From Mermis nigrescens (lineage: Eukaryota; Nematoda; Enoplea; Mermithida; Mermithidae): DNA of 64,000 nt. The position numbers and the translations under genes are program-made. The notes beneath the pieces were generated by a model, which was not told where the DNA came from, searched no databases, and saw only the letters and a list, made by a program, of their open reading frames with translations. Positions within the stretch are counted from its first letter, which is position 1. Each line of letters begins with the position of its first letter. The stretch is from the NCBI GenBank assembly GCA_036768485.1, contig JAVLUZ010000510.1, positions 372,001-436,000 of the forward strand, written 5' to 3'. Shown in pieces: positions 23,174 to 56,760 of the stretch.

Positions 23174-25587
23174 AGCCAACCAACTAATCAGCCAACCAAC
23201 CAACTAACCGGCCAACCAACCAACCAACTAGCCAACCAAACAACCAACCAACCAGCCAAACAGCCAACCAACTAGCCAACCAACCAACCAACCGACAAAA
23301 AACAACCAATAGCCAACCAACCAACCAACCGACAAAAAACAACCAATAGCCAACCAACCAACCAATTAGCCAACCAAACAACCAACCGACCAACTAGCCA
23401 ACCAAACAACCAACTAACCGGCCAACCAACCAATCAATTAGCTACCCAACCAACCAAGTAGCCAACCAACCAACCAACCAACTAGTCAACCAAACAACCA
23501 ACTAACCGGCCAACCAACCAACCAACCAGCTAACCGGCCAACCAACCAACCAACTAGCCAACCAAACAACCAACCAACCGGCCAAACAACCAACCAACTA
23601 GCCAACCAACCAACCAACTAGCCAACCAAATAACCAACCAACCAGCTAAACAGCCAACCAACCAACCAACCAACCAACCAACTATCCAACCAACCAACTA
23701 ATCCAATCCAACCAACCAACCAACTAGCCAACCAAACAACCAACTAACCGGCCAACCAACCAATCAATTAGCTACCCAACCAACCAAGTAGCCAACCAAC
23801 CAACCAACTAGCCAACCAAACCAACCAACTAGCCAGCCAAACACAACCAACCAGCAACAACCAACCAACTAACTAGCCAACCAACCAACCAACTAGCCAA
23901 CCAAACAACCAACCAACCGGCCAAACAACCAACCAACTGGCCAACCAACCAACCAACTAGCCAACCAACCAACCAACCAGCCAACCAACCAACCAACTAG
24001 CCAACCAAACAACCAACTAATCGCCAAACAACCAACCAACTAGCCAACCAACCAACCGGCCAACCAACCAACCAACTAGCCAACCGAACCAACCAACCAA
24101 GCCAAACAACCAACCAACCAGCTAAAAGCCAACCAAACCAACCAACCAACCAACCAACTATCCAACCAACCAACCAACTAGCCAACCAAACAACCAACTA
24201 ACCGGCCAACCAACCAATCAATCAGCTACCCAACCAACCAAGTAGCCAACCAACCAACCAACTAGCCAACCAAACAACCAACTAGCCAACCAACCAACCA
24301 ACCAACCAACTAACCGGCCAACCAACCAACCAACTAGCCAACCAAACAACCAACCAACCGGCCAAACAACCAACCAACTAGCCAACCAACCAAGCAACTA
24401 GCCAACCAATGACAACCAACTAGCCAACCGGCCAAACAACCAACCAACTAGCCAACCAAACAACCAACCAACTAGCCAACCAACCAACCAACTAGCCAAC
24501 CAAACAACCAACTAGCCAACCAAACCAACCAACCAAACAACCAACCAACCAACCAAGCAACCAACCAGCCAACCAACCAACCAATCAACCAACCAACCGG
24601 CCAAACAACCAACCAACCAGCCAACCAACCAACCAACCAACCAACCAACCAACCGGCCAAACCAACCAACCAACCAACTAGCCAACCAACTAAGCCAACT
24701 AACCAACCAACCAACTAACCACAGCCAACCAACCAACTAGCCAACCAAACCAACCAACCATTAACCAACCAAAGCCAACCAACCAACCAACTATTCAACC
24801 AACCAACCAACTAGCCAACCAAACAACCAACTAACCGGCCAACCAACCAATCAATCAGCTACCCAACCAACCAAGTAGCCAACCAACCAACCAACTAGCC
24901 AACCAAACAACCAACTAACCGGCCAACCAACCAACCAATTAACCAACTAACTGGCCAACCAACCAACCAACTAGCCAACCAAACAACCAACCAACCGGCC
25001 AAACAACCAACCAACTAGCACAACCAACCAACTGCAACCAGCCACCAACTGCAACAACAACCAACTAGCCGGACCAACAACAACTAGCAACCAACCAACC
25101 AACTAGCCAACCAACCAACCAACTAGCCAACCAACCAACCAACTAGCCAACCAAACAACCAACTAATCAGCCAACCAACCAACCAACCAACTAACCGACC
25201 AACCAACCAACCAACTAGCCAACCAAACAGCCAACCAACCTGGCCAAACAACCAACCAACTAGCCAACCAACCAACCAACTAGCCAACCAACCAACCAAC
25301 TAGCCAACCAAACAACCAACCAACCAGCCAACCAACCAACCAACCAACTAGCCAACCAACCAACCAACTAGCCAACCAAACAACCAACCAACCAGCCAAA
25401 CAACCAACCAACCGGCCAAACAACCAACCAACTAGCCAACCAACCAACCAACTAGCCAACCAACCAACCAACTAGCCAACCAACCAACCAACTAACCGGC
25501 CAACCACAACCAACCAACCAGCCAACCAGACCAACCAACTAGCCAACCAACCAACCAACTAGCCAACCGCTCAACCAACCAACCACA
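23174..25587. repeat. CCAA-based minisatellite (2.4 kb)
   Basis: Almost pure CCAACCAA repeats interrupted at regular intervals by CTAGCCAA, AACAACCAA, CCGGCCAA and ATCAGCTACC variants, giving a higher-order pattern of roughly 30-60 bp and occasional longer repeats of whole blocks (for example around 23420, 23740, 24200 and 24840). On the minus strand a 4-base unit reads as LVGW in every frame, which creates several stop-free ORFs of 63-80 codons (GWLVGWLV). They are a by-product of the repeat, not genes. Confidence 0.95.
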
Positions 25588-27149: not shown

Positions 27150-27815
27150 TTGTTATTGATGTTTAGGCCGCGCTGAATTCTGCCAATTTTTGTAATGCAG
27201 AATTGCGTTTCAAAAAGGTGAAATCTCAAATTTTTCTCGACGCTTCGCGCCGAATTCATTTAATGTTATCTATTTGTTATTGATGCTTAACCCGCGCCAA
27301 ATTTGGACAATTTTTGTAATGCAAAATTGCGTTTCATAAAGTTTAAATTTAAAAATTTTCCGGCGCTTCGCGCTGAATACAGACAATTTTTGTAATGCTA
27401 AATTGCGTTTCAAAACTCAAAATTTTCGGTGCTTCGCGCCGAATTGATTTAATTTTATTACTCGCGATTGATGCTTGAGCCGCGCCAAATTTGGGCAATT
27501 TTTATAATGCAAAATTGCGTTTCACAAAAGTTAGATTTCAAAATTTTCCGGCGCTCTGCGCCGAATTGATTTAATTTTATTACTTGTTATTGATGCTTAA
27601 GCCGCACCAAATTTGGACAATTTTTGTGATGCAAAATTGCGTTTCACAAAGATTAAATTTCAAAATTTTCCTACATTTCGCGCCGAATTCGAACAATTTT
27701 TGTAATGCGAAATCGTGTTTCAGAAAGGTAAAATGTCTGAATTTTTCCGGCGCTTCGCGCCGAATTGATTTAATTTTATTATTTGTTATTGATGTTTAGG
27801 CTGCGCTGAATTTTG
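27150..27815. repeat. Tandem array, about 120-bp unit with GGCGCTTCGCGCC hairpin
   Basis: Five to six partial units, each with TTATTGATGCTTAAGCCGCG, CAATTTTTGTAATGCAAAAT, TGCGTTTCA and a CGGCGCTTCGCGCCGAAT hairpin. GATGTTTAGG/GATGCTTAAG landmarks fall about 119 bp apart where units are complete. A related but longer unit forms the array at 38800-39330. Confidence 0.85.
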
Positions 27816-28473
27816 ACTAGTTTCGTGCATTTCAAGCAGGACTTATATTTGAAATGAAATGTACTATTTTACGACATGAAAATGAGGAACTCTGTAAAAG
27901 TTTTATTTTTACACAATAAATTGCATAAAAAATAAGCATATTGAAGGCGGTGAATGTCTCTTCAAGATTAAACGTCTATTGTTACTAAAATAATTAGGTT
28001 TTGAACATAATTGCTATGCAAATTATCGATTGCACTATTTTTTTACACCATACTAATTTTGACACACTATTTTTGATTAAAAAATTATGTCGGAGAAATA
28101 GTGCGACTTCTCGCATGAAATTATGAATGGACTTTGCATGAAAGCAAGACTACCATCTTAAAAATTTGATGCATAAATTTTTACAAGCAGGAGTTATGTA
28201 GCAACCACTTTTCTGACTTAAGCAACCAACCAAAAAATTGGGCTCCGGTACCAGCCGAGACTTTAAGGCTTGCCCAGCTATGCAACCAACCAACCAACCA
28301 ACATCAACAAAAGGGACCCCGGTACCTTCAGAACCAAAATCCATTGCCCAGGTATGGTTTTAGCCATTTTTCATATTTGACCTGCAAAAAAGGCTAGACT
28401 CTGAATTAAGTGGCCCTAAATTTTGGGATTTCACCCCCTGGATCTTTGCTGGACCTTGGGAAACTATGGATCA

Positions 28474-29180
28474 GTGGCGGATCTAGAATTTTCTTAAGGA
28501 GGGGGGCGGTATCCCAGCTTTTCCATGAAAGTCAAAAATAGGTCCGAAAATTTGCTCTCAATGCGCAAGATGGCGTTTTTTTCGGTGTTTTACATTGTAT
28601 ACTTTTACATAAAATCACCTGACGCAATATTTTTTCTAAAAATTTTAAAATGTTAGACAATTTTGTGCGAGAAAATCATTAAATTTCTTTGACTTTACCA
28701 AAAATCTGGCGCGAAGCGCCGAAAAATTTGTGAAATCAAGGCGGATAGACGTCTAGAAGCATGATTTACTGCTTGATTTCCTTTATTTATAGCATTTGAT
28801 GCGAAACATCGAAATTTTTAATTGAAAATATAAGAAAACTATGCAAAAATAGATGTTAAAATTGTTTTGAAACCTACATGAACAGAAAATGGCTTCCAGG
28901 CAGTGTTTTCTGTACAAGGTCCGTTTGTACATATACAAAGGTGGTCCCTACAAGTCTTTGTACATTTTGTACACACAAATTTTTGGATACTATGATATAG
29001 TACGCTAGCGACTTTAGTGTGGTAAAAACAGAGTTGTTCGATCTTTGGTAGTGTATTTTGGCCAATTCCTGGTTTTATGAGGGCAAAAATCATTAAGAAT
29101 CGTCTTAAAACGGCGCGAAGCGCCGAAAAATTCGACATTTTTCCTTTCGAAATGCGATTTCTGCTATTATAAAGATATAT
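28474..29180. repeat. Dispersed module with CAGTGGCGGATCTAG start
   Basis: Starts CAGTGGCGGATCTAGAATTT and runs through GGGCGGTATCCCAGCTTTTC, TGGCGCGAAGCGCCG, CCGTTTGTACATATACAAAG and GGTAGTGTATTTTGGC, matching 40378-41090 and the split copy 45088-45452 plus 48570-48915 closely. Non-coding. Contains the uninterrupted target site (AAACTATGCAAAAATAG, about 28836) of the foldback element at 45453. Confidence 0.7.
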
Positions 29181-29181
29181 A

Positions 29182-32100
29182 GTGCTGGCCTCTAAAAAAA
29201 CCATTTTCATCTTTTTTGGCTTATAACTTCAAAACAAATAGCATTGAAGAAGTCAACAAACACTCTATTTTTGACAGCTGCCCTAGGCCTATAACTTGCT
29301 GCATGGAAGAATTTTACAGCGCCATATTTCATAGCAAGCTTGCATGAAATACGAAATATTGAATAAAAACCACTTTTTCCTAAAAAACCACGGAACTAAA
29401 AAACCACCCCTAAAATGTTATGTGAAGTGCATGGTTGGCAGCGTAAAACAGTTAGTTGACCTCAAATGATCACAATTTTGAAAAAAAATTCATTTTTCAC
29501 GATATTTCCGTTCATTTTATCACATTTATATAAAAATCAATAATTTTTTCTGAATTTCATTAAAAGTTGTATAAATTTCACAAATAAAGTCTTCAAGTGA
29601 TAAAAACGACTTTAGGTAAGTCTCTTCCACATCCTCTGCAAGAAATCAATGCAAAATTGTGCAACTTGATGAAAAGCAATTTCGTTGCCATGGCAACGTA
29701 TACTTAGCATTGGTCTTTTTTTAGGTTACAGTGGTTTTTTTAGGTTACAATTAGAGCTGCACACTTTGCAAATTTTACTACCCGGCGTACCCGGCTATTT
29801 CATTACCGGGTACCCGAGCAGTTGGGTACTCGGGTATACCCGGGTATACCCGGGTAGGACCTTAGATAAAAGAGAATGCAGTGAACATCGTTTATTTACG
29901 GTTGACAGTGAGGTCTAGGCAAAGTGATATTTAAGCAGTAAAATTATTGAAAAATTTGTGCAAGATTGAATAAAATCAAGGCTTCAATCTGAAAAATTCG
30001 TATGCATTTAATGAAATTTAAGTCATTTTCATAATTCAAAGCCAAAAATTGTGAAGCAGGTTTTGTATCTTCATAGCGTCATTAAAACATTTGAAGCAGG
30101 AAAACACATTGACGAAAAGCAATTTTGAAATCAATCGGAAATAAAAAATTTATTCAAAAACAAGTCTAAGTCTATCTGGAGCTGACTGCAGAGACGTAGT
30201 CAGAATTTTGGTTCGGGGGCATAAACGTTTTCGTGTAGAATTTACGGCCTTTCTATTGACAAACAGTTCGGAATTCATAAAAGGCGCAAATTGTTAAGAA
30301 ATTTAGTCATTTTTTCCACCCTTAACAGTTTGTAGCTCTGTGAATACTAATATGTAATCTGATAGAGCAGAAAATTATCAAATTTGTACAAAACAGTTTT
30401 GACAATTCAAGCTTCTAACAAGAAAACTGCGAATTACTAGCTTTGACTGAAGATATTTTGAGTGATTCAGGCTTTTAAACGCAATGCTGGATCTTTACAA
30501 AGAGAAAGAACAGTAAATGGCGGCGCTATGCGCAGGGAAAATTTTGACGATTTTGCACTTTAAACTCAATTTATAACGCTTAAATCATTAAAGCAGACAA
30601 ATAGATGCCGGCGCGAAACGCCGGAAATTTTTAGAAATTCCGAACCCTTTTACATGGCTTGTTCTCCCTAAAATCTCGTTGCACATGTACAACGAGATTT
30701 TGTGGCTGCTGGACGTCTGAGGTGGCGAGCGGGATCTGGGGCAGAATCCCGGAAAATTTTGTAAAAAACATTTGAATGTTAAATAGTAAGGTTAAAATTT
30801 TCGAAAAATCGGCCAAATCTCGGTTCGGTAGCAAGCCCAGAAACACTTAAAATTGATGAACTCCTTCATTGCACAAACTGATCTGAAATGCGTTTTTCGA
30901 CCTCTGCTAGGTACGTAGCGCAGCAACGGGTCGCTGCCAATAAGATTTAGAAAGATGTATCCATGAAAATTCTGTCCTTACCGTTTTCATGCCCATTTGT
31001 GACCTTCTAATTTACAAAATGCAGTTCATAGAACAAGAAATGCGCAAAAACATAAGAAAATTTGGCCATTCCTTCCAATTAAAATAGGATTATGTGTCCT
31101 TGTAAAGAAAGATAAACGAACCAAAGAATAGACAAACTGGTACACAAAAGACAAACAAAGCAGAGAATAGACAAACTGGCTCACAATCATTTTCGCACTT
31201 TTACTATCATGCTCAACAAGCATGCGCAGTTTCATTAAACGAACAAATAGTGCATTAAATTAATAAAGTGATGTGGAGGGCTGGATTATTTCAGCTGATT
31301 CAATCTTTTAAATTTGTTGGATCTATATAGCAATAAATAATTATGACTCGGCGCAGAAAATTCTGACGTTTTTGCCTTTTTGAACTCAGTTTTCTGGACA
31401 TACATTATTGCAACAAAAAAATCAACAAAATTTTCCCTGAAAAATTTCGGGGGCAGGTACTCCCCATGCCCCCTGACTACGCCTATGGCTGACTGCATTT
31501 GGAACATCGATAGGCTTTGAACCAGGTCTAACTAAAACAGTTGCGCGCACGATGTGAATAAAAGTTGCAGTTTAAATTTATATAATGGTCACAGAAGTGA
31601 ATGCATTATAAAAAAGCGTCACTAACAGATGATTTCTTGTTTAAATTTGTTTACAATGAAGAATAAGAAGAATTCGGTACAAATAAAATGATGTAGCTAA
31701 AGAGCTGAATAATGGAATATGCCTAGACGGGATGCACGATATATTGTGATAATAGGAAATATTAACAGACTCGCTATTTAACATTTTAGCGGTCGATTAT
31801 ATCAAATCACATTTACATTGTGATTCAGTCGCACTTTAGAAGCAATATGTTTCTAGGTTTCTAATTCAATTCTTAGCACATATTGCATAACTGCAGTGCT
31901 AATTTTAAAGTTTATATTAGGGGATTCGGTACCCGGGTATACCCGGTACTCGTAGGCTAAGAATCCGGGTAGTAAACTTATTTCTACCCGGCAGTACCCG
32001 GGTATACCGGTACCAGGTACTCGGGTACCCGTTCGGGTACCCGCGTGCAGCTCTAGTTACAATCGAACTTTTTGGCAGTTTTTGGGGTGATTTTTCTTTA

Positions 32101-32574: not shown

Positions 32575-33390
32575 TAAATGTATAGGACACACAATTCCTC
32601 ATTACGGCGCGAAGCGCCGAAACTTTTTGCGAATTTCAGACCTTTTTGTGGTTTTTGTCTTCCCGAAAATCTTTGTACATCTACAAAGACGGTCCCGAAA
32701 AGTCTTTGTACATCGGGAAAAATCTTTGCCGGATACAAAAAAACTTGCTTCCATGTCGCCAAGAAAGTAAATAAATGTCATTAATAGGTATCATCCAGCG
32801 CGTAGCGCCGGAAAAATTTGAGAAGTTATGGTCACTGACGGCCAAACATCATTGCAAATTGCTTATCCATTCTTTATCTCGCCAAATATTTTTGGTCAAT
32901 GGGAGGGGAGGCGGCCGCACCCCCACCGCCTCCACTTAAATCCGCCCCTACATAGGACAAACAATTACTCATATCGGCGCAAAGCGCCGAAAATTTTTGG
33001 GAATTATACATCTTTTTACAGTTTTTGTCTTCCCAAAAACAGAGTTGTTCGACTTTTGATAGGGTATTTTGGCTAATTTCTGAGTCTCTAAGGGCAAAAA
33101 TCACTAAGAATCGTCGTAAAACGGCGCGAAGCGCCGAAAAATTTGACATTTTTCCCTTTGAAATGCAATCTCTGCCATTATAAAGATATATAGAACACAC
33201 AATTATTCATTTCGGCGCTAAGCGCCGAAAATTTTTGCGAATTTCAGGCCTTTTTTGCAATTTTAGTTTTCCCAAAAATCTTTGTACATGTACAAAGACG
33301 GTCCAGAAAAGTCTTTGTACATCGGGAAAAATCTTTGCCGAGTACAAAAAAACACTGTTTCAAAAACGTCTTAGCGAACAATAGTACAAA
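32575..33390. repeat. Dispersed palindromic repeat modules
   Basis: Two to three partial copies of the CTTTGTACATGTACAAAG module with GGCGCGAAGCGCCG hairpins near 32606, 32977, 33123 and 33213. Also GGCGGCCGCACCCCC..AAATCCGCCCC near 32910-32950, an end resembling the right end of the MITE at 49108. Confidence 0.65.
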
Positions 33391-36149: not shown

Positions 36150-36790
36150 TACAAAGATCTCCGAAAAGGTTCTATGTATGAGCTAACAAATTTTTGTAGC
36201 TATATTTTGACTTTTGATTGTATATTTTAGCTAATTTCTGGGTTTCTAACGCCAAAAATTACTAAAATTGGCTAAAACGGCGCGAAGCGCCTAAAAATTT
36301 GACATTTTTCCATTCTAAATACAAATTCTGCTATTTTAAAATATATAGGACAGACAATTTTTCATATCAAAGCGAAACGCCGGAAAATTTTTGGAATTTT
36401 ACACCTTTTAACAGTTTTTATCTTCCCAAAAATCTTTGTACATGTACAAAGATAGTCCTGAAAAGTCTTTGTACATCGGAAAATCTTTGGCGAATACAAA
36501 AAAGACTGTTTTGTACATGCAAATTTTTGTATACTTCAATATGGTACAGTAACGATTTCAGTGTGGTAGAACATAGTTTTTCGACCTTTAGTAGTGTATT
36601 TGGCTAATTTTTGGGTTTCTGAATATTTGACATTTTTCCATTTTCCCATTCTAAGCGCAGTGTTGCTTATTACAAGATTAATTCGCATATTACAATTTTT
36701 GTAATGCTTTCTCAGTCGAGTTTTATGTGTGAATTCCATCGAAATCATAAAAATGTCTGGCACTTCGCGCCGAACTAATATTATCAACTA
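36150..36790. repeat. Dispersed palindromic repeat module
   Basis: CTTTGTACATGTACAAAGAT, AAGTCTTTGTACATCGG and AAACGGCGCGAAGCGCC blocks in the usual order, nested in the hAT element 35461-38640. Confidence 0.65.
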
Positions 36791-39330: not shown

Positions 39331-40169
39331 TGGATAAATTATAGTTTTAATTGTCAAAAACGACTTCAGAATTCGCTAAAATGCTTTACTGAAGGAAGGA
39401 AATTCAAGTTTTAACATGAATAACGTATACTGATCGTGATATTTCTTGTAGAGCGCGAAATTTTTATACAAAAAGTGCATCAAACACCGCTATTGCATGT
39501 GTACATAAAATTTTCTACTTAAAAAACACTAATTTTTCGACACAGGCGCTCATATTTTTAACGTTTTAAGACCTCCCAAAAAACATGGAAAAAGGTCGGA
39601 AAAAGTGGAAAAAAATTTTGGGTTTGGTTTGTAATGTCAACCAAATCGCTGGGGAAAAAACGGTGCACACAATAGGTACTCAAAAGATAACTGCTATCGC
39701 CCGCATATCACACATCGCCAGTGTTGCCAACCCAAATTTTCAAAAACCTCAAATCACTGGCCAAAAAAACCTCAAAAATTAGGGTAAAACCTCAAAATTC
39801 AGAAATGAATTCTATCCAGTGTACAATAAGGTTTACAGGCTTTGTAGCTATTTTCATTTAAGCTTAGCCCAAATTTATGTGGTTCTGCTTAAGTGGATCT
39901 AATTTTATAGCTTTCAGTTCAGGCCACTGGTTTCCTAAAATAAAATTCCCGGGTTTTTCCCGGGGTTTCTCGGGTGATTTATGGGCAATTTCCCGGTTTT
40001 AAATCATGCTTTAAACGCACACCATACATGCAGAAGTGTCATGATAAGAACATGAAAAAGGGTGAGGCACAAGCAACTTTTAATCAAACAAATGCAAATA
40101 CTACCCGAAACGTTTTGGAACAATCATAATTTCCTTTTCAATGATGCTAACGAGTTGTTGATAGCAGTT

Positions 40170-41400
40170 CTCGCAGCCTATAATATAGTAAATTAGCGAT
40201 ATTTAGTGTGGTAAAAGAGGGTTTTCGATCTTTAGTAGTGTATTTCAGCTAACTTCTGGGTTTCTCACGCCAAAAATTACTAAGAATTGACTCAAAACGG
40301 CGCCAAGCGCACGAAAAATTTGGCATTTTTCCATTCTAAATGCAAATTCTGCCATTTTAAAGATATACAGGACCAGTGGCGAATCTAGGATTTTCCTAAG
40401 GGGGCGGTATCCCAGCTTTTCCAAAAACAGACAAAAATAGATCAAGAAATTTGTCATTAATGCGCAAAATAGCGTTTTTTTGGTGCTTTACATTGTATAC
40501 TTTTACATAAAATCACTTGACGCAATATATTTTCTGAAAATTTTAAAATGTTAGACAATTTTGTGCGAAAAAATCATTAAATTTCTTTGACTTTAACAAA
40601 AATCTGGGGCGAAGCGCCGGAACATTTGTGGAATTAAGGCGGATAAACGTCTAGAAGCATAATTTACTGCTTGATTTCCTATATTTATATCACTTGATGC
40701 GAAACATCGAAATTTTTGGATTGAAAATAGAAGAGAACTATGCAAAAATAGCTGTTAAAATTGTTTTGAAATCTACATGAACAGAAAATGGCTTCAAGAC
40801 AGTCTTTTTTTGTACAAGGTCCGTTTGTACATATACAAAGATGGTCCCTAAAAGTCTTTGTACATTTTGTACACACAAATTTTTGGGTACTATGATATAG
40901 TACGGTAGCGACTTTAGTGTCGTAAAAACAGAGTTGTTCGACCTTTGGTAGTGTATTTTGGCAAATTGCTGGTTTTATGAGGGCAGAAATCATTAAGAAT
41001 CGTCTTAAAACTGCGCGAAGCGCCGAAACATTTGACATGTTCCCTTTCGAAATGCGATTTCTGCTATTAAAAAAATATAAATAGGACACACAATTACTCA
41101 TTTTGGCGCAAAGCGCCGAAAATTTTTGCGAATTTCATACCTTTTTCTGCAGATTTTGTCTTCCTAAAAATCTTTGTACATCTACAAAGACGGTCCCAAA
41201 AAGTCTTTGTACATCAGAGAAAATGTTTGCCAAATACAAAAAACGTGCTTCCATGTCGCCAAGAAAGTAAATAAATGTCATTAATAGGTATCAAAGGGAG
41301 CGTAGCGCCGGAAAAATTAGAGAAGTAATAATCACTGACGGCCAAAAATCATTGCAAATTGCTTATCCATTCTTTATCTTGCCAAAGATTTTTGGCCAAC
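40170..41400. repeat. Dispersed palindromic modules within element copy 1
   Basis: Two successive modules with hairpins near 40300, 40610, 41014, 41104 and 41309 and CTTTGTACATCTACAAAG-type palindromes. Includes the uninterrupted site GAACTATGCAAAAATAG (about 40737-40750) that is split by the foldback element in copy 2. Confidence 0.65.
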
Positions 41401-42191
41401 AGGGGGTGTCAATATGACCACTAGAGCTGTTCAATTTGTAAATTTTGCTACCCATGTCTAAAACATGGTGAGAATCAAATAGACAACCTCTTAAATAAAG
41501 GCCATTTTCTGCATAAAACCTGTGCAGAACAGAAGAAATAGATGCAAAATACGCTTTAGGTTGTATCAAGACTAAAAATCGAGCGTTTAAACCGCGCGCT
41601 TGGGAATAAGTAGACTCTAATCATAATTTTGAAATTTTTAGCGATTTTGGCTACAAAAAAGCGAGGGAGGAGTAAAGGGAAAAATCATTCTTATATTTCA
41701 TTTTGGGGGTCACGTGTTCCCCCTATCCTTCGAGATACGGGTACCCCTGTTAGATTATTGGACAAACAGGTCTATACCTACCTAGTCCATGCAAACAATA
41801 CTCCAGTGAAAGCAATTTATAGATTCTAAGCTGCGTACAATAAATGCTTTGTATGATTAGAAAATCGAAGATAAATTTGTTATTCATAATTAATTATAAT
41901 TACGTTTGGCACACCGTTCCGTAGTCAGGTCAAGTGTTTTACCAAATGGGACAACGCAAAAAAGAAATCCATCTTACTTAAGTATAGGCAGATGCAGTTG
42001 TATTTATTTATTTATTTTTCAAATCAAGTTTTACATTGCGAACATGGGCCTGACTAAAAAAAGCGCAACACATGTTTAGTAGATATAGATATGCGACGTA
42101 GGTAAGTATGCGGAATCAGAACGCATGCGTGTATGAACATTATTCAATTGGAAATAAAGGCTAATATTGACATTAAAACAAATGACTAAAT

Positions 42192-42286
42192 TAGAGCTGT
42201 GCCGGGGCCAGGCCCCAGCCCCGAGCCGAGGCCAGGCTGGCCCCGGCTCCGGCCCCGGCAAAAAAGGCGGCCCCGGCACAGCTCTA
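42192..42286. mobile_element. 95-bp hAT MITE, perfect 18-bp TIRs
   Basis: TAGAGCTGTGCCGGGGCC at the left and its exact inverse at the right, with GACTAAAT duplicated at 42184-42191 and 42287-42294. The unoccupied site is present once in copy 2 of the host element (GACTAAAT at 50792-50799). Almost the whole element is GC-rich inverted repeat. Confidence 0.9.
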
Positions 42287-42664
42287 GACTAAATCCTACT
42301 CTGTGCACCTGCACAAGGGGTATGGGTAAAATCCGGAACCAGGACCAGGACCAGGACCAGGACAAAATGGGTAAAATCCGGACAATCAATCAGGACCAGG
42401 ACCAGGACCGGACTCAGGACAAATGGGTAAAATCCGGACAAACAATCAGGACAATGAAAAGATCAGGACAATGTATTAGATATGTAGGGTCGGACTGGCC
42501 AGGACCTGACAAATTAGGTAAAATCCGGACAATCAATCAGGACAATGTATAAGATATGTAGGGTCGGACTAGCCAGCAGGCACATAGCTGTGGGGGACTG
42601 GGGTTGGGACCCCCAAAATTCAGGAAAAACCGGAAAAATAGGACTTTTTACACGTTATTTTGTG

Positions 42665-42835
42665 TGTCCCAGTGGCACTTGTGAACCTCAGTGGCGCTTA
42701 TGGACATTGGTGGCGGTTGTGAACCCCAGTGGCGCTTGTGAACCCCGGTGGCGCTTGTGAAGCTTGGTGGCGCTCATGGACCTTGGTGGCGGTTGTGAAC
42801 CCCAGTGGCGCTTGTGAACCCCATCAGGCCCCCAT
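42665..42835. repeat. About 18-bp minisatellite GTGGCGCTTGTGAACCCC
   Basis: Eight or so units with variants GTGGCGGTTGTGAACCCC and GTGGCGCTCATGGACCTT, in the central part of the MULE-like element. Confidence 0.85.
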
Positions 42836-43104
42836 TTGGGCACCCTCGCCTAGTTCTGGAACTACCCCACTCCAATTGTCCTGATTAATTGTCCGGATTT
42901 TACCCATTTTGTCCGGTTCTGGCTAGCAGGCACATAGCTGGCCCTCCTATTTTGGGGGGACCAACACCAATTTTGGGGGGTCCAAGCCAAAAATAGCACA
43001 AAATAACGTGTAAAAAGTCCTATTTTTCCGGTTTTTTCTGAATTTGGGGGGTCCGGACCCCCCTAGTCCCCCCACAGCTACGTGCCTGCTGGCTAGTCCG
43101 ACCC

Positions 43105-43655
43105 GGCATTGGTGTAGCTGGTTCACATATGTATTAAGATAGCCACGTTATAGGTACGTATGCAGCAAGTAGTATCCGGTGAAAGCTGCCACCTAACTGG
43201 TTTGATTTGAGTCAAGTCGAAAACAAATAAGGCAGTCATCAGTTTTTTCCCGCAGATTCATGTGACTGACCAAAATGTTGGTGCCAGCATTTAAAATAAG
43301 ACTAAGTAATGGGATGTAACTCGCGCCGCTTCCGCTGCGCTCGCTCCGGTCGTTGCATCCCATTACTCAGGCTTATTTTAAACGCTGGCACCAATATTTT
43401 GGTCAGTCCATGATACTAAGCCTAAGCCTAATCAGCTGGTAAACCAGCAAAACATCACGAATACCTTGCAATCTTTATTGAAATTAACCAGCATTAGTCG
43501 ATTGGTTATGGTTCTGGACTCTAGAGCAAGGAGTCCACGTTTCGAATCCGACTGCCAGCAACTTTCTCTTGTTTCCTCAGATGCTATCGACTGCACACAT
43601 ATGCCCTTATAATATGACTATGTTAATACATATGTGAACCAGCTACACGAATGCC
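43105..43655. mobile_element. GGCATT element copy A, with inner hairpin and tRNA-like segment
   Basis: Ends are inverted copies of GGCATTGGTGTAGCTGGTTC (one mismatch, extending to about 31 bp). The nonamer GTCCGACCC flanks both sides (43096-43104, 43656-43664). Inside, 43265-43425 forms a long hairpin (TTGGTGCCAGC...GCTGGCACCAA with CTAAGTAATGGGATG arms), and a tRNA-like segment follows at 43489-43560. Same family as 50197-50745. Confidence 0.8.
43489..43560 (+). ncRNA. tRNA-like segment with pol III A and B boxes
   Basis: TAGTCGATTGGTTATGG resembles an A box and D arm, TGGACT..AGTCCA forms an anticodon-type stem, and GTTTCGAATCC at 43539-43549 differs from the B-box consensus by one base. 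No matching acceptor stem was found, so this is a tRNA-derived promoter segment rather than a functional tRNA. The GTTCTGGACTCT portion is reminiscent of tRNA-Gln. Confidence 0.45.
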
Positions 43656-46600
43656 GTCCGACCCTACATATCTAATACATTGTCCTGATCTTTTCATTGT
43701 CCTGATTGATCGTCCGGATTTTACCCAATTTGTCTGGTCCTGGCCAGTCCGACCCTACATATCTAATACATTGTCCAGATCATTTCATTGTCCTGATTGT
43801 TTGTCCGGATTTTACCCATTTGTCCTGAGTCCGGTCCTGGTCCTGGTCCTGATTGATTGTCCGGATTTTACCCATTTGTCCTGGTCCTGGTCCTGGTCCT
43901 GGTTCCGGATTTTACCTTTTCCCCTGCACAAGCCACAAAGTAAGCAAAAAAGTTAATTCGAACTTCTCCAGTTTGGGGTTAGTGATGAAATTTCTTGTTG
44001 TTGTTGTTGTGCTTTTCATAGGTTTTATGCATGTGGTAGCACTTCTGCTTAGCTTATTTACTCCCATGTTGGTTGATTATTAAGTACTCCAGCTTACTTT
44101 GAGATTATAGGCGTTACCATGGAACTCACTAGCACGTTTTAGGCGATTCACTTCAGTGTCAGTTCCTCCAATTTTATCAATTGCGTCACGAGCAAAGCGA
44201 AGTTAAAATTAGCTACAGCAGATAACACAATATTTTAACTGTAATCGATATCTAGCTCGCTTATTTCAGAAAACCTCGAATTTTCACCAAAACCCCAAAA
44301 AAAACCTCAAAATTTTCAAAAACCTCAACAAAAACCCCAAAAAATAAAAACCTCAAATGTAAAATAAAACCTCAAAATTTGAGGTAAACTCCACAGTTGG
44401 CAACCCTGCACATCGCTCTGCTACAGTGTTGCCAACCCAAATTTTCAAAAACCTCAAATCACTGGCCAAAAAAATCTCAAAAAATTAGGTAAAACCTCAA
44501 AATTTAGAAATGAATTCTATCCAGTAAACAATAAGGTTTACAGACTTTGTAGCTATTTTCATTTAAGCTTAGCCCAAATTTATGTGGTTCTGCTTAAATG
44601 GATCTAATTTTATAGCTTTTACTGCAGTCCAGGGTGGCCACTGGTTTCCTAAAATAAAATTCCCGGGTTTTTCCTGGGGTTTCTCAGGTGATTTATGGAC
44701 AATTTCCCGCTTTTAAATCATGCTTCAAACGCACACGATACACGCAGAAGTGTCATGATAAGAACATGAAAAAGGGTAAGGCACAAGCAACTTTTAATCA
44801 AACAAATGCAAATACTACACTAAACGTTTTGGAACAATCATAATTTCTTTTTCAATGATGCTAACGAATTGTCAATAGCAGTTCTCGCAGCCTATAATAT
44901 AGTACAGTAGCGATTTTAGTGTGGTAAAACAGAGTTTTCGATCTTTGGTAGTGTATTTCAGCTAATTTCTGAGTCTCTCAAGCCAAAAATTACTAAGAAT
45001 TGACTCAAAACGGCGCAATGCGCCGAAAAATTTGGCATTTTTCCATTCTAAATGCAAATTCTGCCATTTTAAAGATATATAGGAGCAGTGGCGAATCTAG
45101 GATTTGCCTAAGGGGGGCGTGTGTCCCAGCTTTTCCAAAACAGTCAGAATTAAACCAAAAAAATTTGTCCTTAACGCGCAAAATAGCGTTTTTTTGGTGT
45201 TTTACATCGTATACTTTGACATAAAATCACTTGACGCAACATTTTTTGAAAATTTTGAAATGTTAGACAATTTTGTGCGAAAAAATCATTAAATTTCTTT
45301 GACTTTAACAAAAATCTGGCGCGAAGCTGCCGAAACATTTGTGAAATTAAGGCGGATAGACGTCTAGAAGCATGATTTACTGCTTGATTTCCTGTATTTA
45401 TATCATTTGATGCACAACATCAAAATTTTTGATTGAAAATAGAAGAAAACTACAGTACACGCCTGGAATTTTGCATGCGCAGTCTCCATTAACTTTTGTT
45501 GCAGTCGGATTTTAGCGAGCGGACCTCAGTGGCCATTAGTGGGCCGCTGTTAAGCACTTGCAGCCGATTGACGGACTGCTTTCGAACTACTGCGGCCGTT
45601 CGTCGACTGCAGTGGCCGTTGGATGCTGACTGCAGTTACTTTACTGTAAGTACGGAAACATGTATGGTATCGCTGCTAGCATATTGCGTTATTTGTCGCA
45701 CCGCATGCGTGCGTTTCAAAAGTGTGTGAGTGCAGCAGGTCCAGTCCGAGAAAAAAAGGTAAAAATAGATTAGAATTTTCGTGCATATCATTATAATTCT
45801 CGTTTCCTCCATTGGAATCTCATCTAAGAGATTATGGGCATAAAAATTAAAGAGAATAGTGTTTCCTGTGTGCGATCGATTGCATATTGCTCTCCAGCAA
45901 AAGAGCATTTAGGCTGAGAGCGTTCCGCGTTTTAAAACACATTCATGAACAATAAAGAGTAAAAGATTTAAAAATCATAAGCACGAAATTTCTTTTGCCA
46001 TTAGTTATATGATTTTAGAAAGCGCATCTTTTCGACTAAATCAAAATTAGCAATAAAATCAAAGCAAATTGCTCTTTGGAGGAAAAGGTTTTTCGGTTTT
46101 TCAAAAGGGTATTTTCCTTCTTCTAAAAAACCATATTTTTCATTCTCATATTGCAAAATTGGGAAGACAGAATGAATAGTTGATGTAAGGTCTAAGCTAA
46201 ATATAACATTTAACAAAATAGCAAAATACAGATGACAAATAGTTTCGCAAATTAATTGTACATCATAAAATTTTTGTTAAAATAAACTATACAATAAATA
46301 TCGTAATGCCTTTAAAATGCAAAATTGATAAAAAGTTCCTGATTATCCGCTTTCCAAGATATTTTGTATTTTCGATTTTTTCATTTATTCAGATACAATA
46401 TGTACATCAATAATATATTCAGTTCAGAAGCGAAATGCAAGCATATAGTTAAAAAAATATTGCCCGTTCTATTATCTCGCGCAAATTTTATTCCGACCAC
46501 CCAACTTCCTTCGCAATTTTTCTTGTTCAATTAAAGTACTTTATATGCGTATCTACCATTTTGTATTTATTTTAATCAGCGAACATGCACCTGCAAAGCT

Positions 46601-46939
46601 TGAAAATACGACAACAAATTTTTACCTCCTGATATTTTAATACACAAGCTCAGAAAGATTTTGCTCGCGTTCCCTGCTCTCTGTTTGACTGAGGACGCAT
46701 AAATTTTGCTGATCAGATAGCGAATTGACTGGCGTTTGCAACAGGCTGTGCCTAAAACTTGAATCTCCTGCGCAAAAAGTATAGTAACCGAGCGTTGAAT
46801 TTCGACTTAACTTAAGTGGGAATAAATCGAAATATTGCAACCAAAATAACTCAGCGCACTATGCATGATGTACAATTAATTTGCAAAACTATTTGTCATC
46901 TTTATTTCACTTTTTTTAAATTTTATATTCAGCCTAGAC

Positions 46940-47828
46940 CAGGGGCGTAACCAGGATTTTATTTCGAGGGGGAAGGGCCAAAATTTTTGGAGTCCTATAT
47001 CTCGGGAATCATTAGAAGATACGCGAAAATAATGGCATTTTTGAGCGTTTGTCGACAAGATCTATTCCATGGTGAAGTGAAAAATTTTAAAAATTTAAAA
47101 TTTTCGTGCTTGATTTCAAATTTGGATATCAAAAATCTATCTTTTAACCTATCGGTATGACTAATTTCTCAATATCAAATTAAAGCTTGACTCCAAAACA
47201 TTTCGAAATTCTTTTCTTTGCATTTAATTTTGCAGTTTTGTAAAGAAAACTAATACATAAAATAATAAATCGGCGCGAGGCGCCGAAAATTTTCGACAAA
47301 TTCGCTATTTTTAAGTAAAATCTGGGCGTCTAAGGTAAGAAAAAAGATAGAGCATTAGAAATCTGTGCGAGCGCCGAAATTTTTTTTGACAAATTCGCTA
47401 TTTTAAGGTAAAATCTGGGCGTCTAAGGTAAGAAAAAAGATAGAGCAAAAGAAATCCGGCGCGAAGCGCTGAAAAGTTTTGACAAATTTGCTAGTTTTAA
47501 GTAAAATCTGGGCGTCTACGCTAAGAAAAAAGATAGAGCATAAGAAATCCGACGCGAAGCGCCGAAAATTTTTGACAAATTCGCTATTTTTAAGTAAAAT
47601 CTGGGGTTATAAGGTAAGAAAAAAGATAGAACATAAGAAATCCGGCGCGAAGCGCCGGAAAATTTTGAGTTTAGAAGCTAAAAAGTGTGCTGAAAACGCA
47701 AACGCATTATGGCTGTCCACAATCCGTTTCCACTTCACCTGAAGAAAAAATCAAAGGGTCCCCCTTTGCTTTTAAAAAATTATCTTTCTATTTCGAGGGC
47801 CCCCGCCCCCCTCCTGGTTACGCCCCTG
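46940..47828. mobile_element. hAT-like element CAGGGGCGTAACCAGGA nested in foldback arm
   Basis: Exact 17-bp inverted ends CAGGGGCGTAACCAGGA, with GCCTAGAC / GCTTAGAC at 46932-46939 and 47829-47836 (7 of 8). The undisturbed counterpart is in the opposite arm (GTCTAAGC, about 46190). Interior is mostly a tandem array, without transposase. Confidence 0.85.
47256..47680. repeat. Tandem array, about 93-bp unit with hairpin
   Basis: Four to five units of GGCGCGAAGCGCCGAAAATT, GACAAATTCGCTATTTT, AAAATCTGGGCGTCTAAGGT and AAAAAAGATAGAGCA; the CTGGGCGTC landmark repeats about every 93 bp. Inside the hAT-like element 46940-47828. Confidence 0.85.
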
Positions 47829-48569
47829 GCTTAGACCTTACAGTCACTATTCATTCTCTCTTCCCAATTTCGCAATATAAGAGTGAAAAATATGGTTTGT
47901 ATAAGATGGAAAATACCCTCTTGAAAAAACTTTTCCTCCAAAAAATTAGAGCATTTCCTTTGATTTTACTGCTAATTTTGATTTAGTCGAAAAGATGAGC
48001 TTTTTAAAATCATATAACTAATGGCGAAAGAAATTTCGGGCTTATGATTTTTAAATCTTTTACTATTTATTGGCCATGAATGTGTTTTAAAATGCGGAAC
48101 GCTCTCAGCCTAAATGCTCTTTTGCTGCAGAGCAATATGCAATCGATCGCACACAGGAAATACTATTCTCTTTAATTTTTATGCCCATAATCTCTAAGAT
48201 GAGATTCCAATGGATGAAACGACAATTATAATGATATGTACGAAAATTCCAATCTATTTTTACCTTTTTTTCGGACTAGACCTGCTGCACGCACACACTT
48301 TTGAAACGCACGCATGCGGTGCGACAAATAACGCAATATGCTAGCAGCGATACTATACATGTTTCCGTACTTACAGTAAAGTAACTGCAGTCAGCATCCA
48401 ACGGCCACTGCAGTCGACGAACGGCCGCAGTAGTTCGAAAGCAGTCCGTCAATCGGCTGCAAGTGCTTAACAGCGGCCCACTAATGGCCACTGAGGTCCG
48501 CTCGCTAAAATCCGACTGCAACAAAAGTTAATGGAGACTGCGCATGCAAAATTCCAGGCGCGTACTGTA

Positions 48570-49420
48570 TGCTAAAATAGCTCTTAAAATTGTTTTGAAA
48601 CCTACATGAACAGAAAATGGCTTCAAGGCAGTATTTTTTGGTACAAGGTCCGTTTGTACATATACAAAGATGGTCCCTAAAAGTCTTTGTACATTTTGTA
48701 CACACAAATTTTTGGGTACTATGGTATAGTACGGTAGCGACTTTAGTGTCGTACAAAAAGAGTTGTTCGACCTTTGGTAGAGTATTTTGGCTAATTCCTG
48801 ATTTTATGAGGGCAAAAATCATTAAGAATTGTCTTAAACGGCTGCGAAGCGCCAAAAAATTTGACATGTTTCCTTTTGAAATGCGATTTCTGCTATTATA
48901 AAGATATATAGGACACACAATTACTCATTACGGCGCGGAGCGCCTAAATTTTTGCGAATTTCATACCTTTTTGCAGATTTTGTCTTCCCGAAAATCTTTG
49001 TACATCTACAAAGACGGTCCCGAAAAGTCTTTGTACATCATGAAAGATCTTTGCCAAATACAAAAACGTGCTTCCATGTCGCCAAGAAAGTAAATAAATG
49101 TCATTAACAGTGGCGGATCTAGGATTTTCCTAAAAGGGGGGCGGTACCCCTAAGGGGGCGGAACCCCGACTTAGGCGGAAAAATTAGCCGTTTTAACCCG
49201 AAAATCGGTAAAAATCGCTCAAAAATGCTTAATTTTGCGCACTATTTTGGGCCAATGGGGGAGGGGGACGGCCGCCCCCTAAATCCGCCCTTGGTCATTA
49301 ATAGGTATCATCCAGCGCGTAGCGCCGGAAAAATTTAATAAGTTATGGTCACTGACGGCCAAATATCATTGCACATTGCTTATCCATTCTTTATCTCGCC
49401 AAATATTTTTGGCCAATGGG
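48570..49420. repeat. Dispersed palindromic module, right half of the copy split by the foldback
   Basis: Continues the module interrupted at 45452: CCGTTTGTACATATACAAAG, hairpins near 48842, 48931 and 49315, CTTTGTACATCTACAAAG. Colinear with 40741-41400, apart from the MITE at 49108-49293. Confidence 0.7.
49108..49293. mobile_element. 186-bp CAGTGGCGG MITE, exact 8-bp TSD
   Basis: Ends CAGTGGCGGATCTAGG and (inverted) CAAGGGCGGATTTAGG; GTCATTAA at 49100-49107 and 49294-49301. The empty site ATGTCATTAATAGGTATC occurs at about 41275 and 32776. GC-rich inner blocks GGGGGCGGTACCCC and GGCCGCCCCC. hAT-like by ends and duplication size. Confidence 0.85.
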
Positions 49421-50196
49421 GGAAGGGTGTCAAAATGACCACTAAAGCTGTGCGATTCATAAATTTTGCTACCCAGATGCCTAAAACATGGTGAGAATTA
49501 AATAGACACCCTCTTAAATAAAGGCCATTTTCTGCATAAAACCTGTACAGGACAGAAGAAATAGATGCAAAATACGCTTTAGGCTGTATAAAGACTAAAA
49601 ATCGAACGCCTAAACCGCGCGCTTGAGGAATAAGTAGACTCTAATCATAATTTTGAAATTTTTTGCGATTTTGGCTAAAAAAACGAGGGGGAGTAAAGGG
49701 ATAAAACATTCTTATATTTCATTTCGGGGGTCACGTGTTCCCTCCGCCCTATCCCCTGGGATACGGGCCTGATTACCTCTGTTAGATTAAGATTATTGGA
49801 CAAATAGTTCTATACCCACCTAGTCAATACAAACAATCAAACAGATTTTACTCCAGTGAAAGGAATTTAGAGATTCTAAGCTAAGTACAATAAAATGCTT
49901 TGTATGATTAGAAAATCGAAGATAAATTTGTTATTCATAATTAATTATAATTACATTTGGCACACCGTTCCGTAGTCAGGTCAAGTGTTTTACCAATTTG
50001 GACAACGCAAAAGAAATCCATTCACTTATAGAAAGATGAAATTCACAAAACAGTTTTATTTATTTTTTCAAATCAAGTTCTACATTGCGAACATGGGCCT
50101 GACTAAAAAAGAGCGCAACACTATGTTTAGTAGATATAGATATGCGACGTAGGTAGGTATGCGGAATCAGAACGCATGCGTGTATGAACATTATTC

Positions 50197-50745
50197 GGCA
50201 TTGGTGTAGCTGGTTCACATATGTATTGAGATAGCCACGTTATAGGTATGTATACACAGCAACTAGTATCCGGTGAAAGCTGCCACCTAACTGGTTTGAT
50301 TTGAGTCAAGACGAAAACAAATAAGGCAGTCATCAGATTTTTCCAGTAGATTCATGTGACTGACCAAATGTTGGTGCCAGCGTTGAAATAAGCCTAAGTA
50401 ATGGGATGCAGCTCGCGTCGCTCGCTTCGCTCGCTCCGCTCGTCGCATCCCATTACTCAGGCTTATTTTAAACGCTGGCACCACCATATTGATCAGTCAT
50501 TGATACTAAGTCTAAGCCTAATCAGCTGGTAAACCAGCAAAACATCACGAATACCTTGCAATCTTTATCGAAATTAACCAGCGTTAGTCAATTGGTTATG
50601 GTTCTGGACTTTAGAGCAAGCGGTCCACGTTTCGAATCCAACTGCCAGCAACTTTCTCTCGTTTCCTCAGATGCTATCGACCGTACACATACGCCCTTAT
50701 AATATGACTATATTAATACACATGTGAACCAGCTACACGAATGCC
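50197..50745. mobile_element. GGCATT element copy B, 8-bp TSD
   Basis: GGCATTGGTGTAGCTGGTTC and its near-exact inverse, flanked by CATTATTC at 50189-50196 and 50746-50753. The empty site is at 42138-42145 in the other host copy. Contains the same inner hairpin and tRNA-like segment as copy A. Confidence 0.85.
50579..50650 (+). ncRNA. tRNA-like segment, second copy
   Basis: As at 43489-43560. The anticodon-type stem is TGGACT..GGTCCA, so the A-T pair of copy A is replaced by a T-G wobble, and the B box GTTTCGAATCC (50629-50639) is unchanged. Function not shown. Confidence 0.45.
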
Positions 50746-51308
50746 CATTATTCAATTGGAAATAAAAGCTAATATTGACGTTAAAACAAATGACTAAATC
50801 CAACTCCTGCACAAGCCACAAAGTGAGCAGAAAAGGTTAATTCGAACTTCTTCAGTTTGGGGTTAGTAATAAAATTTCTTGTTGTTGTTGTGCTTTTCAT
50901 ACGTTTTATGTACGTGGTAGCACTCCTGCTTAGGTTATTACTCCCATGTTGGTCGATTATTAAGTACTCCAGCTTACTTTGAGATTATAGGCGTTACCAT
51001 GAAACTCACTAGCAGGTTTTAGGCAGTTCACTTCAATGTCAGTTCCTCCAATTCAATTAATTGCGGCACGAGCAAAGCGACGTTAAAATTAGCTACAGTA
51101 TTTAACACAATATTTTAACTGTAATCGATATCTAGCTCGCTTATTTTAGAAAACCTCGAATTTTCACCAAAACCCCAAAAAAAACCTCAAAAATTTCCGA
51201 AAACCTCAACGAAAACCCCAAAAAATAAAAACCTCAAAAAAACCTCAAACGTAAAAAAAACCTCAAAATTTGAGGTAAAACCCCACGGTTGGCAACCCTG
51301 CTCTGCTA

Positions 51309-54179: not shown

Positions 54180-56760
54180 ATGGGTGGTAAGAAAATTCTT
54201 CGCACTCCCCCGGCTAAAAAATTGCCCACATCATCCCATTCGACGCGCCAAACGCAGAATCCACAAACCAGTTCTGCGACGAACGATAATAATAAGTCAC
54301 CTTCCCCGGCGAATAATACCTCCGTCATTCCTTCTGATGATGAACTCGACAACGAATAGCGTTCCTATGGGAACCGGCAATTCAGTCGATACATCAGACG
54401 AAATGCTTCTGACGAAACGATCGTAAATACTGATCCTAATCTTCGCACAGATAATAATAAACCCGAAGACGAAGCCGTTTTACCCACCCATACTCTTGAT
54501 ATGGAAAGTAACGCTTCTGAAAGACTAAATGAGGACGAAAATCAGTCCAAATTCGGTCAATTCTGATCGAATTCTTTCGGCTATTCTCGAGAATATTCAG
54601 AAAATGAACTCCCAACATACGCAAGAGATGCGTCAAATTCGTGAGGAAATGAATACCCTTACGTCTTACGGCTACGTTTTCTCGGTCGCCCGGAGGCTAC
54701 TCAGTCTCTGCGATCCCACCCTGATGAAAACGTAAGTACTAATGTTCCTATTGAATTCCCTAAACGACGTATCGAACCATCGGATAATATCCATATAAAT
54801 TCCGACACTCCCTCACCTATTTTGCGTCATCATCTTAATAAGCCTAAACCTAGAGTCGAACTCGCGTCCGAAAGGACTTTTGCGCCCATATTACCCATGA
54901 GTGAGCGCCATTCTAATGACTCCGCGCCTACCTCACGCATTTGCGAGCAGCGCCCAAAAAACCCATACCTATGGAAACTTTACCCAATTCTGCGCATATT
55001 TCGCAGTGGGTCGTTAAACCAGCAATCTGCTGAAATCGCTCCTAATGTATCGCATTTTCTCGCAGACGGCAATTAAATCAGTTAGCTCCTGAGTTTGTGC
55101 CTAACTCTGCGAGTAATGTGTCTCATTCATCCCTGAAACCGCCACCCTTGCATTATTTTCCTCCTAATGCGGAATGCGCGCCTATGCAACACGCTTCGCA
55201 GCAAGTGAGTGATGAATTTTTCGGCGCCAAGATAATTTATTAAATCCTAATAACGAACCCATACCTATCGACGACACCGTAAATTCCCAACCCCCGAGCC
55301 AGCGTCGTGTTACGTTCTCGGATGAGGATTCTAATCATTCGCATCATGAATCTTCAGCATCGCGAACATTCGCATCGCTCGCATCGTCACTGCAGCTCGC
55401 GTCGTCCTTCGCCATAATTCTGATTCATCATCATCGTCAAATGAAGTTTCATCTTTTGCTGATGCAGTAAATCGTGCACCGTTTTTACAGCAAATGCAAA
55501 TCGCAGTCGCTAGTCGAAAAAACCTTTCAAGGCGAAAAAACTGACATACGAAAATTTTTTTGCATTATTTGAACAACTGGCAAAAGTGTACAAAATTGAC
55601 AAAGCGGAAAGAGCTGAATTTGTCTCTTCATTTTTTGACGACTATGCCCTAAACTTATACGAATCCCTACCCTCGGATATTCGAACCTCCTATACCAAAA
55701 CTAAGTATGCTATGATCGCTGAGTTTCGTCCCCTCGATCAAGATACTTTAATGGACCGCTTCATTGAGCGCAAGCAACAGCCTAATGAGTCTGTCCAAGC
55801 ATATTTTCTTGCGATTCATCGGAGAGCTAAAGCGCGCAGAACCTGATCTTGAGGTGGATTCCCCACGTTTTAATAAGATGCTTAGGTATCAATTAAAACG
55901 CGGCCTGTTTCCCGAAATTTCAGCAGCAGCCTATCAGCAAGGCGCCTGAAGCCCTTTTGCATGAATTTTTGCATAATGCTAAGTGTGCCGAGTATGCTAA
56001 TCGTCAACTCACAGAGCAAAAAGCTCCAACTCCTTATGTATCGGCGATAGCTACCCCTACTGGCGGCCCATTGTCTAAGGACCCTGCATTTCACGTGAGT
56101 AATGTCGAATCTGATCGCTCGCGCACTAAAACTTTCAGTCGCTCAAAACGCCCTGCAAATGAAGAAGCAGTGCAAAAATTTTGCACGTTTTGTAAACGCT
56201 GCGGGTCACACGCATGAAGAATGTTTCCAGCGATTAAGGGCAACGCAAAGCAGAGCAGAATGCGCAACTACAGAGAAGCGATTCCACCATGCGTCAGCGT
56301 AGTCAGTCGCTGTTCCTGCAATAATCGTAATCGCTCATCGCCGCGTCATAATCATAATAATCGCCAATCATCTAAGACTAGATACAGCGATCAAAGCCAA
56401 AATCGCCAATCTACTTCCCAAAACTCGGACGACGTTTTGATTCGAGACGTTCGCGCCCAATGTTTCGGCAAAATTATAATGATTCACGCGCCACATTATC
56501 GTCAAAATTTTCAAAATCAGCGCTACGATAATCGTACCCCACGTTCTGACTATCGCCAATCTTACCCATCGATGACTTACCCGCCAGAACCACGTAATAC
56601 GTTTTATAACTCATCGTATCGTTCTGCGCCACAACAGTATCCCCCTAACGTCACGCGCATAGCGGATTACCATCCCAATGGAGCCTTACCCCTCCACAAC
56701 CGCCCTTTTTGTCCAAAAATGGCGTAAACACGGTTACCTCAAACGTACCTGAGGCTAAAA
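54180..56760 (+). pseudogene. gag region of Ty3/gypsy-type retroelement, frameshifted
   Basis: An ATG at 54180 opens a 59-codon frame beginning MGGKKILRTPPAKKL, rich in Ser/Thr/Asn, that stops at 54359; the reading then continues in other frames in short open pieces. The capsid-like core is at about 55540-55960 (ERAEFVSSFFDDYALNLYES, then YAMIAEFRPLDQ and VQAYFLAIH), typical of the retrotransposon gag family. A zinc knuckle (CTFC..GHTHEEC, CX2CX4HX4C pattern) is at about 56175-56225 but is split by a one-base shift. Its job would be to form the particle and bind element RNA. Many single-base shifts separate otherwise clean coding pieces, so it is either a dead copy or the sequence has indel errors. 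Confidence 0.8.

Follow-up and report, generated by a model that had tools for sequence, protein, structure and literature searches.

Two independent insertions of a non-autonomous hAT-like element at overlapping target sites in Mermis nigrescens, and the placement of related elements beside one another's ends

Background

The closest described counterparts of the elements treated here are Ac/Ds of maize and the hAT elements Hermes, hobo and Tol2. Our subject is a pair of copies of a non-autonomous hAT-like element in a 64,000-nucleotide stretch of the genome of the nematode Mermis nigrescens (contig JAVLUZ010000510.1, positions 372,001 to 436,000; hereafter the window, G000:C456:372001-436000 in our numbering of the 860 contigs of the 524-Mb assembly). 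Copy 1 occupies 39719..44408 and copy 2 44424..51300, both on the forward strand. The two copies are independent cut-and-paste insertions of one family, from different lineages and at overlapping target sites, and throughout the genome CAGNGTTGCCA-ended elements are found 0 to ~50 bp beyond each other's ends much more frequently than at greater distances.

As far as the excerpted account of Ac/Ds goes, those elements resemble the window copies in making 8-bp duplications, in the shortness of their terminal inverted repeats, which measure 11 bp in Ac/Ds and 13-14 bp in the window copies, in the repetition of a hexamer near both ends, and in having non-autonomous members with filler DNA and foreign inserts (PMC3260210). 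They differ from our elements in that the outer AACCTC motifs here all point one way. Nested Ds insertions are called rare in the same excerpt (PMC3260210), whereas here ends abut at 176 places, the comparison being one of DNA features alone.

Hermes, hobo and Tol2 also share the 8-bp duplication. In the parts of the sources at hand, hobo is described as having a palindromic target motif (PMC3276498), Hermes as an octamer that binds subterminal repeats through its BED domains (PMC10368747), and Tol2 and Ac as reinserting near the donor site (PMC2753552). Such local hopping by Tol2 or Ac spans hundreds of kilobases, whereas the bias described here extends over ~50 bp and acts between different families.

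Two further systems bear on the arrangement of the pair. The KolobokP multimers are likewise DNA transposons in head-to-tail series; according to the excerpt, however, their abutted long terminal repeats are shared, and the series have their duplications at the outer ends and are ascribed to unequal crossover (PMC9587614), whereas each window copy has a duplication of its own. In reversed Ac ends transposition, again as excerpted, two nearby elements with facing ends are able to act together (PMC4270019). The window pair has this geometry, but no such rearrangement is seen at the window and the outer duplications are mismatched. In the sections seen of the literature on nested, tandem, local and self-insertion we found no report of a hAT insertion beside resident ends, which is not proof of absence, and the 14-base end of our element was not found in the literature searched; a shorter form of it occurs in four papers, which to judge by their titles are unrelated. 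The unusual part of what follows is the end-adjacent placement across families.

Results

Two insertions at overlapping target sites

Copy 1 begins with CAGTGTTGCCAACC and ends with GTTGGCAACCCTG, and consists of a 2972-bp core and two inserts, I4 and I5. It is flanked by the 8-bp target-site duplication CACATCGC at 39711..39718 and 44409..44416. Copy 2 has a 3009-bp core with three inserts, I1, I2 and I3, and is flanked by CTCTGCTA at 44416..44423 and 51301..51308. The copies have the same orientation and are 15 bp apart, with base 44416 belonging to both duplications. An earlier, sequence-only reading of the window had given these coordinates, ends and duplications, including the one-base overlap, and all of them are present. 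The terminal inverted repeat, CAGTGTTGCCAACC against CAGGGTTGCCAACC, is 13-14 bp long with one mismatch.

With the five inserts left out, an alignment that the same reading had suggested, the cores are 92.1% identical over 2944 aligned columns, with 32 indels and a Kimura two-parameter (K2P) distance of 0.084. The similarity ends at the termini: 24/60 and 14/60 flanking bases agree between the copies, and the colinearity into flanking DNA that a true segmental duplication would leave is absent. What looks like a tandem duplication had been explained as two separate insertions of a roughly 3.0-kb element, and we reach the same conclusion, since the duplications differ, the flanks are unrelated and the copies belong to different lineages. 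A single compound insertion of both copies was ruled out; the outer flanks, CACATCGC and CTCTGCTA, differ, so that the pair did not arrive as one unit.

Scripted insertion of both elements into the joined flanks rebuilt the observed letters exactly in either order, and the overlap of the duplications is therefore uninformative on which copy landed first. The two 8-bp target sites simply happen to overlap by one base, and the window pair taken by itself is ordinary transposon nesting. The core divergence was considered as an age for the pair and dropped, because the copies come from different lineages.

The hexamer AACCTC is concentrated at the ends of both copies. In copy 1 there are three subterminal motifs at the 5' end (39745..39793; at 39745, 39768 and 39788) and five at the 3' end (44272..44373); in copy 2 there are two at the 5' end (44450..44498) and six at the 3' end (51152..51264), all on the + strand. 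Each copy thus has eight in its outer 150+150 bp, all in the same direction, against a maximum of three in 2000 shuffles; none of the 2000 shuffles per copy reached eight. Repeated subterminal motifs of this sort are a hAT feature, and these are candidate transposase sites.

By duplication length, ends and subterminal motifs, the window copies are a non-autonomous hAT-like element. No hAT frame lies inside the element, which is therefore filed as hAT-like by its DNA features only. The 8-bp duplication expected of hAT elements is found in both window copies, in relatives elsewhere in the genome and in two members that lie beside other elements' ends (L042 and C81, described below). The window copies also have short terminal inverted repeats starting with CAG, a start with CAG or TAG being usual for hAT. 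The P superfamily would fit by duplication length; the CAG ends are unlike P-type ends.

Among the 72 open frames of at least 50 amino acids in 39719-51300, no hAT transposase or remnant was found at E 0.05 or better, as is expected if the element is non-autonomous. The best match in this region, of one frame to a herpes glycoprotein model (2.3e-5), was taken as chance. The sequence-only reading had suggested looking for an autonomous relative with a hAT transposase. Genome-wide, the Dimer_Tnp_hAT domain gave 150 scored matches among 3147 candidates, in open frames of up to 613 amino acids, none of them so far linked to these ends. Four stop-free frames of 580-613 amino acids with hAT dimerisation domains, at G000:C63:418714, C403:208382, C721:76647 and C51:21608985, could possibly encode active transposases.

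Relatives of the window copies

The search for other family members used the first kilobase of copy 1; 48 matches were listed, and 40 of 6710 first-look candidates were scored. The sample was picked for likeness to copy 1, and closer kin of copy 2 may exist. The sequence-only reading had proposed looking for such members, and the genome holds relatives with the same ends and 8-bp duplications: in 20 retrieved stretches the duplication at these ends was perfect in seven and had one mismatch in three, and in the other ten no pair was found. Several relatives are 2.94-3.00 kb long and are without large inserts.

A comparison of the first kilobase among 22 sequences showed that copies 1 and 2 are not mutual nearest relatives. 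Copy 1 is 99.4% identical to a member that we call L021 and 93.3% identical to copy 2, and its grouping with L021 has a support of 0.895; the nearest sampled relative of copy 2 is L026, at 95.5%. L021 lies elsewhere, on a different contig, and has a duplication of its own (ACTGCATC) and flanks unlike those of copy 1. Because copy 1 is nearer to L021 than to its neighbour, the pair is explained neither by tandem duplication nor by a daughter copy made locally. The terminal branch of copy 1 is shorter than that of copy 2 (0.001 against 0.038), which would suggest that copy 1 is the younger arrival, but we claim no order, given how the relatives were picked.

Repeated segments do occur in the family. 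At G000:C51:23948641-23959891 (L039 and L040) three members stand ~5.1 kb apart, two of them with identical 60-bp left flanks, and this trio, in contrast to the window pair, looks like a true tandem duplication. In each of the pairs L031/L032, L050/L051 and L034/L057, members at two different places have nearly identical flanks, with 55 to 60 of 60 bases in agreement, which suggests duplicated segments or unmerged haplotypes.

Inserts and cargo

For each of the five first-level inserts the opposite copy preserves the empty site, as the sequence-only reading had reported, and each insert has a duplication; all the inserts described here are on the + strand. In copy 1, I4 (95 bp, 42192..42286) has TAGAGCTGTGCC ends and the duplication GACTAAAT. 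I5 (1607 bp, 42318..43924) runs from GGGTATGGG to CCCC, with the duplication TGCACAAG, readable as 8-10 bp, up to CCTGCACAAG. Nested in I5 is I5b (551 bp, 43105..43655), with GGCATTGGTGTAGC ends and the 9-bp duplication GTCCGACCC.

In copy 2, I1 (3115 bp, 45453..48567) has TA on both sides, CAGTACACGCC ends and inverted arms of ~740 bp that are 95.9% identical (732 columns). It is Tc1/mariner-like by two features of that group, a TA duplication and ends starting CAGT. Nested in I1 is I1b (889 bp, 46940..47828), with CAGGGGCGTAACC ends and the duplication GCCTAGAC/GCTTAGAC, which has one mismatch. I2 (186 bp, 49108..49293) runs from CAGTGGCGGATC to CCGCCCTTG with the duplication GTCATTAA. I3 (549 bp, 50197..50745; duplication CATTATTC) is of one family with I5b, 93.2% identical over 547 columns and at a different site. 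The duplications of I3 (8 bp), I5 (8-10 bp) and I5b (9 bp) compare with ~9 bp in Mutator-like elements, and these inserts are non-coding.

Junction probes for each insert were compared with the 20 retrieved stretches. L021 holds both junctions of I4, of I5 and of I5b, with a longer I4 region than the 95 bp of copy 1. Because L021 stands at another site, I4, I5 and I5b were not inserted after copy 1 had arrived at this locus. The simplest reading, which takes shared junctions to mean shared descent, is that all three were already present in the source from which copy 1 and L021 both derive, and that copy 1 landed as a ~4.7-kb element. The junctions of I1, I1b, I2 and I3 were found in none of the 20 stretches, a small set chosen for its resemblance to copy 1, and this fits later insertion of I1, I2 and I3 at this locus. 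The order of events that had been drawn from the five empty sites, with every insert arriving after its host, thus fails for I4 and I5, which were present before copy 1 landed, and is compatible with I1, I2 and I3.

The arms of I1 have diverged by 0.042 and those of I5 by 0.039 (236 columns). Insert ages based on these values were dropped, as they assume arms that were identical at insertion; I5, moreover, came in with copy 1, and its arm divergence does not date this locus.

Placement beside resident ends

Other hAT-like ends were initially sighted close to several members in the retrieved flanks, and the test was then fixed before the next flanks were read. In 15 new left flanks, a 7-base end motif occurred within 30 bp of the member in two (L042 and L053), against 0.08 expected from the density 100-400 bp away. 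Over all 35 left flanks there were four, including the window, against 0.16 expected; these are 35 of 40 flanks, with L032, L040b, L051 and L057 excluded for repeated flanks and L058 because its 5' end was not at the expected place. On the right, 5 of 18 flanks, again including the window, had the motif near the member, against one match in 5100 bp farther out.

Outward-facing pairs of ends with at most one mismatch per end were counted in 37 stretches (225,834 bases), leaving out L001-L018 and L020, whose places are repeated by later stretches, as well as L032, L051 and L057. There were eight pairs at 30 bp or less, none at 31-120 bp and four at 121-300 bp. Genome-wide, the strict pair GGCAACCCTG followed by CAGTGTTGCCAACC occurred nine times at gaps of 0-30 bp (2, 2, 2, 8, 11, 15, 16, 20 and 25, the window pair being the 15) and not at all at 31-61 bp, and seven of the nine right-hand elements begin like the family of the window copies. 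The degenerate pair TGGCAACNCTG followed by CAGNGTTGCCA was found at 176 places at 0-30 bp, 17 at 31-61 bp and one at 100-130 bp, while the same pattern read backwards gave none in any of the three distance classes. The 17 have gaps of 31 to 50 bp, eleven of them 31-35, and in two cases the left end also belongs to a shorter pair. For 50 listed places of the 176, gaps range over 1-30 bp and the spacers, compared by eye, are all different; 33 pairs are direct, 15 inverted and two unassigned (p 0.013). Among eight pairs retrieved, four have the same miniature inverted-repeat transposable element (MITE) on both sides and four join different families.

In some cases the insertion falls into or against the tip of the neighbour. 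At C81 a member starts 2 bp past a MITE end and is flanked on each side by the duplication ACCCTGTC, which is made up of the final six bases of that MITE end plus TC. L042, the single slice among 14 to include the 3' end, has GCCCTGAT on both sides, adjoining TTGGCAACGCCCTG. L035 is flanked on each side by CCTGGCAA, within a terminus-like stretch. C61 has the same 2-bp spacing as C81, but its right flank is without the expected repeated letters.

Other features of the window

A third, diverged 3'-type end of the class lies at 21085-21181 in reverse orientation (local score 68 against a maximum of 33 in 300 shuffles); its partner end was not found. The segments 22208-22670 and 28472-29182 are 90-91% identical to parts of the core and start exactly at other CAG-type ends (CAGGGTGGCCAC and CAGTGGCGGATC), suggesting that the core may itself contain older nested elements. 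Dispersed and tandem repeat units common to different elements lie at 19065-19811, 27382-27766, 32578-33353, 36206-36622 and 47262-47666, several of them with GGCGC..GCGCC-like palindromes. A 2.4-kb array at 23176-25585 with a pronounced strand skew was scored as ~600 CCAA units matching at 73%. At 55514-55843 a frame matches Retrotrans_gag (E 2.5e-6), in a broken retroelement-like stretch towards the end of the window. Two gene-like frames had no relative at E 0.001, and no Rfam matches or tRNAs were found. The 32-base 5' end had no match in genome_contigs or viral_contigs, both of which are chiefly non-eukaryotic.

Discussion

We hold with high confidence that the window pair arose by independent insertions, that copy 1 brought cargo, and that an end-adjacent bias operates genome-wide, these three taken jointly and leaving aside how the bias comes about. 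For its origin we tentatively propose, at a little less than even confidence, that hAT-like families with CAG(T/G)GTTGCCA ends steer insertion to within ~50 bp outside resident ends of the same group, by way of transposase on the resident end. A hAT transposase complex carrying an excised element would bind the end or the subterminal repeats of a resident element and then insert its load into the DNA protruding just beyond. Hermes transposase works as an octamer in which several BED domains read subterminal repeats (PMC10368747), and the present family has eight AACCTC motifs near its ends; a complex with free binding domains could grip the resident end and strike the adjacent DNA. Head-to-tail clusters of unrelated elements would result without duplication or recombination, and elements would in this way carry older nested elements along as cargo. 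The resident end is, we think, the most likely cause of the bias; that the transposase does the tethering we infer from the pattern, with a belief that again stops somewhat short of one half.

Several points weigh against the genome-wide bias. A looser 6-base motif is noisier: at 1-50 bp it occurred in 7 of 35 left flanks, yet at 151-200 bp it was again present in 5 of 35, with 1, 1, 5, 2, 0, 0 and 3 in the seven successive bins after the first. The strict pattern was compared at 0-30 and 31-61 bp only, and chance levels were judged from control distances. A gap of 8 bp is the commonest (6 of the 50 listed places), and tandem multimers sharing a duplication could give the same; four of the eight retrieved pairs have the identical MITE on both sides. 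Outer ends and duplications were recovered for none of those eight within 1.5-kb slices, so that for most of the 176 places the separate insertion of the partners is deduced from their differing spacers. Duplicated contigs could inflate the counts, and L031 and L032 do have identical flanks.

The main rival holds that narrow sequence or chromatin hotspots draw this class of transposase and that two elements use one hotspot independently, which we regard as possible though on the doubtful side. The 13 duplications lean to a palindromic centre (positions 3-6 most often T, G, C, A, with reverse complements added), and hobo, itself a hAT element, has the palindromic target motif GTNCGNAC, as given in the excerpt (PMC3276498). 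The gaps, however, run smoothly from 1 to ~50 bp and then stop, a range wider than a motif of 8 to 14 bp, and the C81 duplication includes its neighbour's own last six bases. The excess of direct over inverted pairs (33 to 15 of the 50 listed) also speaks against hotspots, though end types differ between families.

The remaining alternatives concern the window pair. Local hopping, with copy 2 a daughter of copy 1 or the reverse, has precedents in Ac, for which over half of the reinsertions lie within 1.7 Mb, and in Tol2, for which ~15% remain on the donor chromosome, as the excerpted source has it (PMC2753552). It is nevertheless very improbable here: identity is 93.3% between the copies against 99.4% between copy 1 and L021, the cargo of copy 1 is in L021 and not in copy 2, and many abutting pairs elsewhere come from different families. 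Even less credence is due to a tandem or segmental duplication or an unequal crossover that made two copies from one. The shared orientation, the 15-bp distance and the true tandem copies known in the family (the C51 trio) would agree with it, but the 8-bp duplications differ, each matching its own copy only, the flanks are unrelated and the lineages are different. An assembly error that fused two unrelated copies seems just as hard to credit, although the region is repeat-rich; a false join would not leave a matching pair of duplications for each copy and a single 15-bp spacer that explains both, and the pattern recurs at many places.

Implications

The comparison with L021 is a caution for the reading of nested transposons: even where a neighbouring copy preserves its empty site, an insert may predate the arrival of its host, which could have brought it along, so that events at a locus are not dated by layering alone. 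If steering by resident ends is true, clusters of DNA transposons in large genomes would not have to be taken as signs of duplication or selection, as they would follow from transposase targeting, and a eukaryotic DNA transposon would gain a targeting rule open to testing in cells that contain a single resident end and a single donor.

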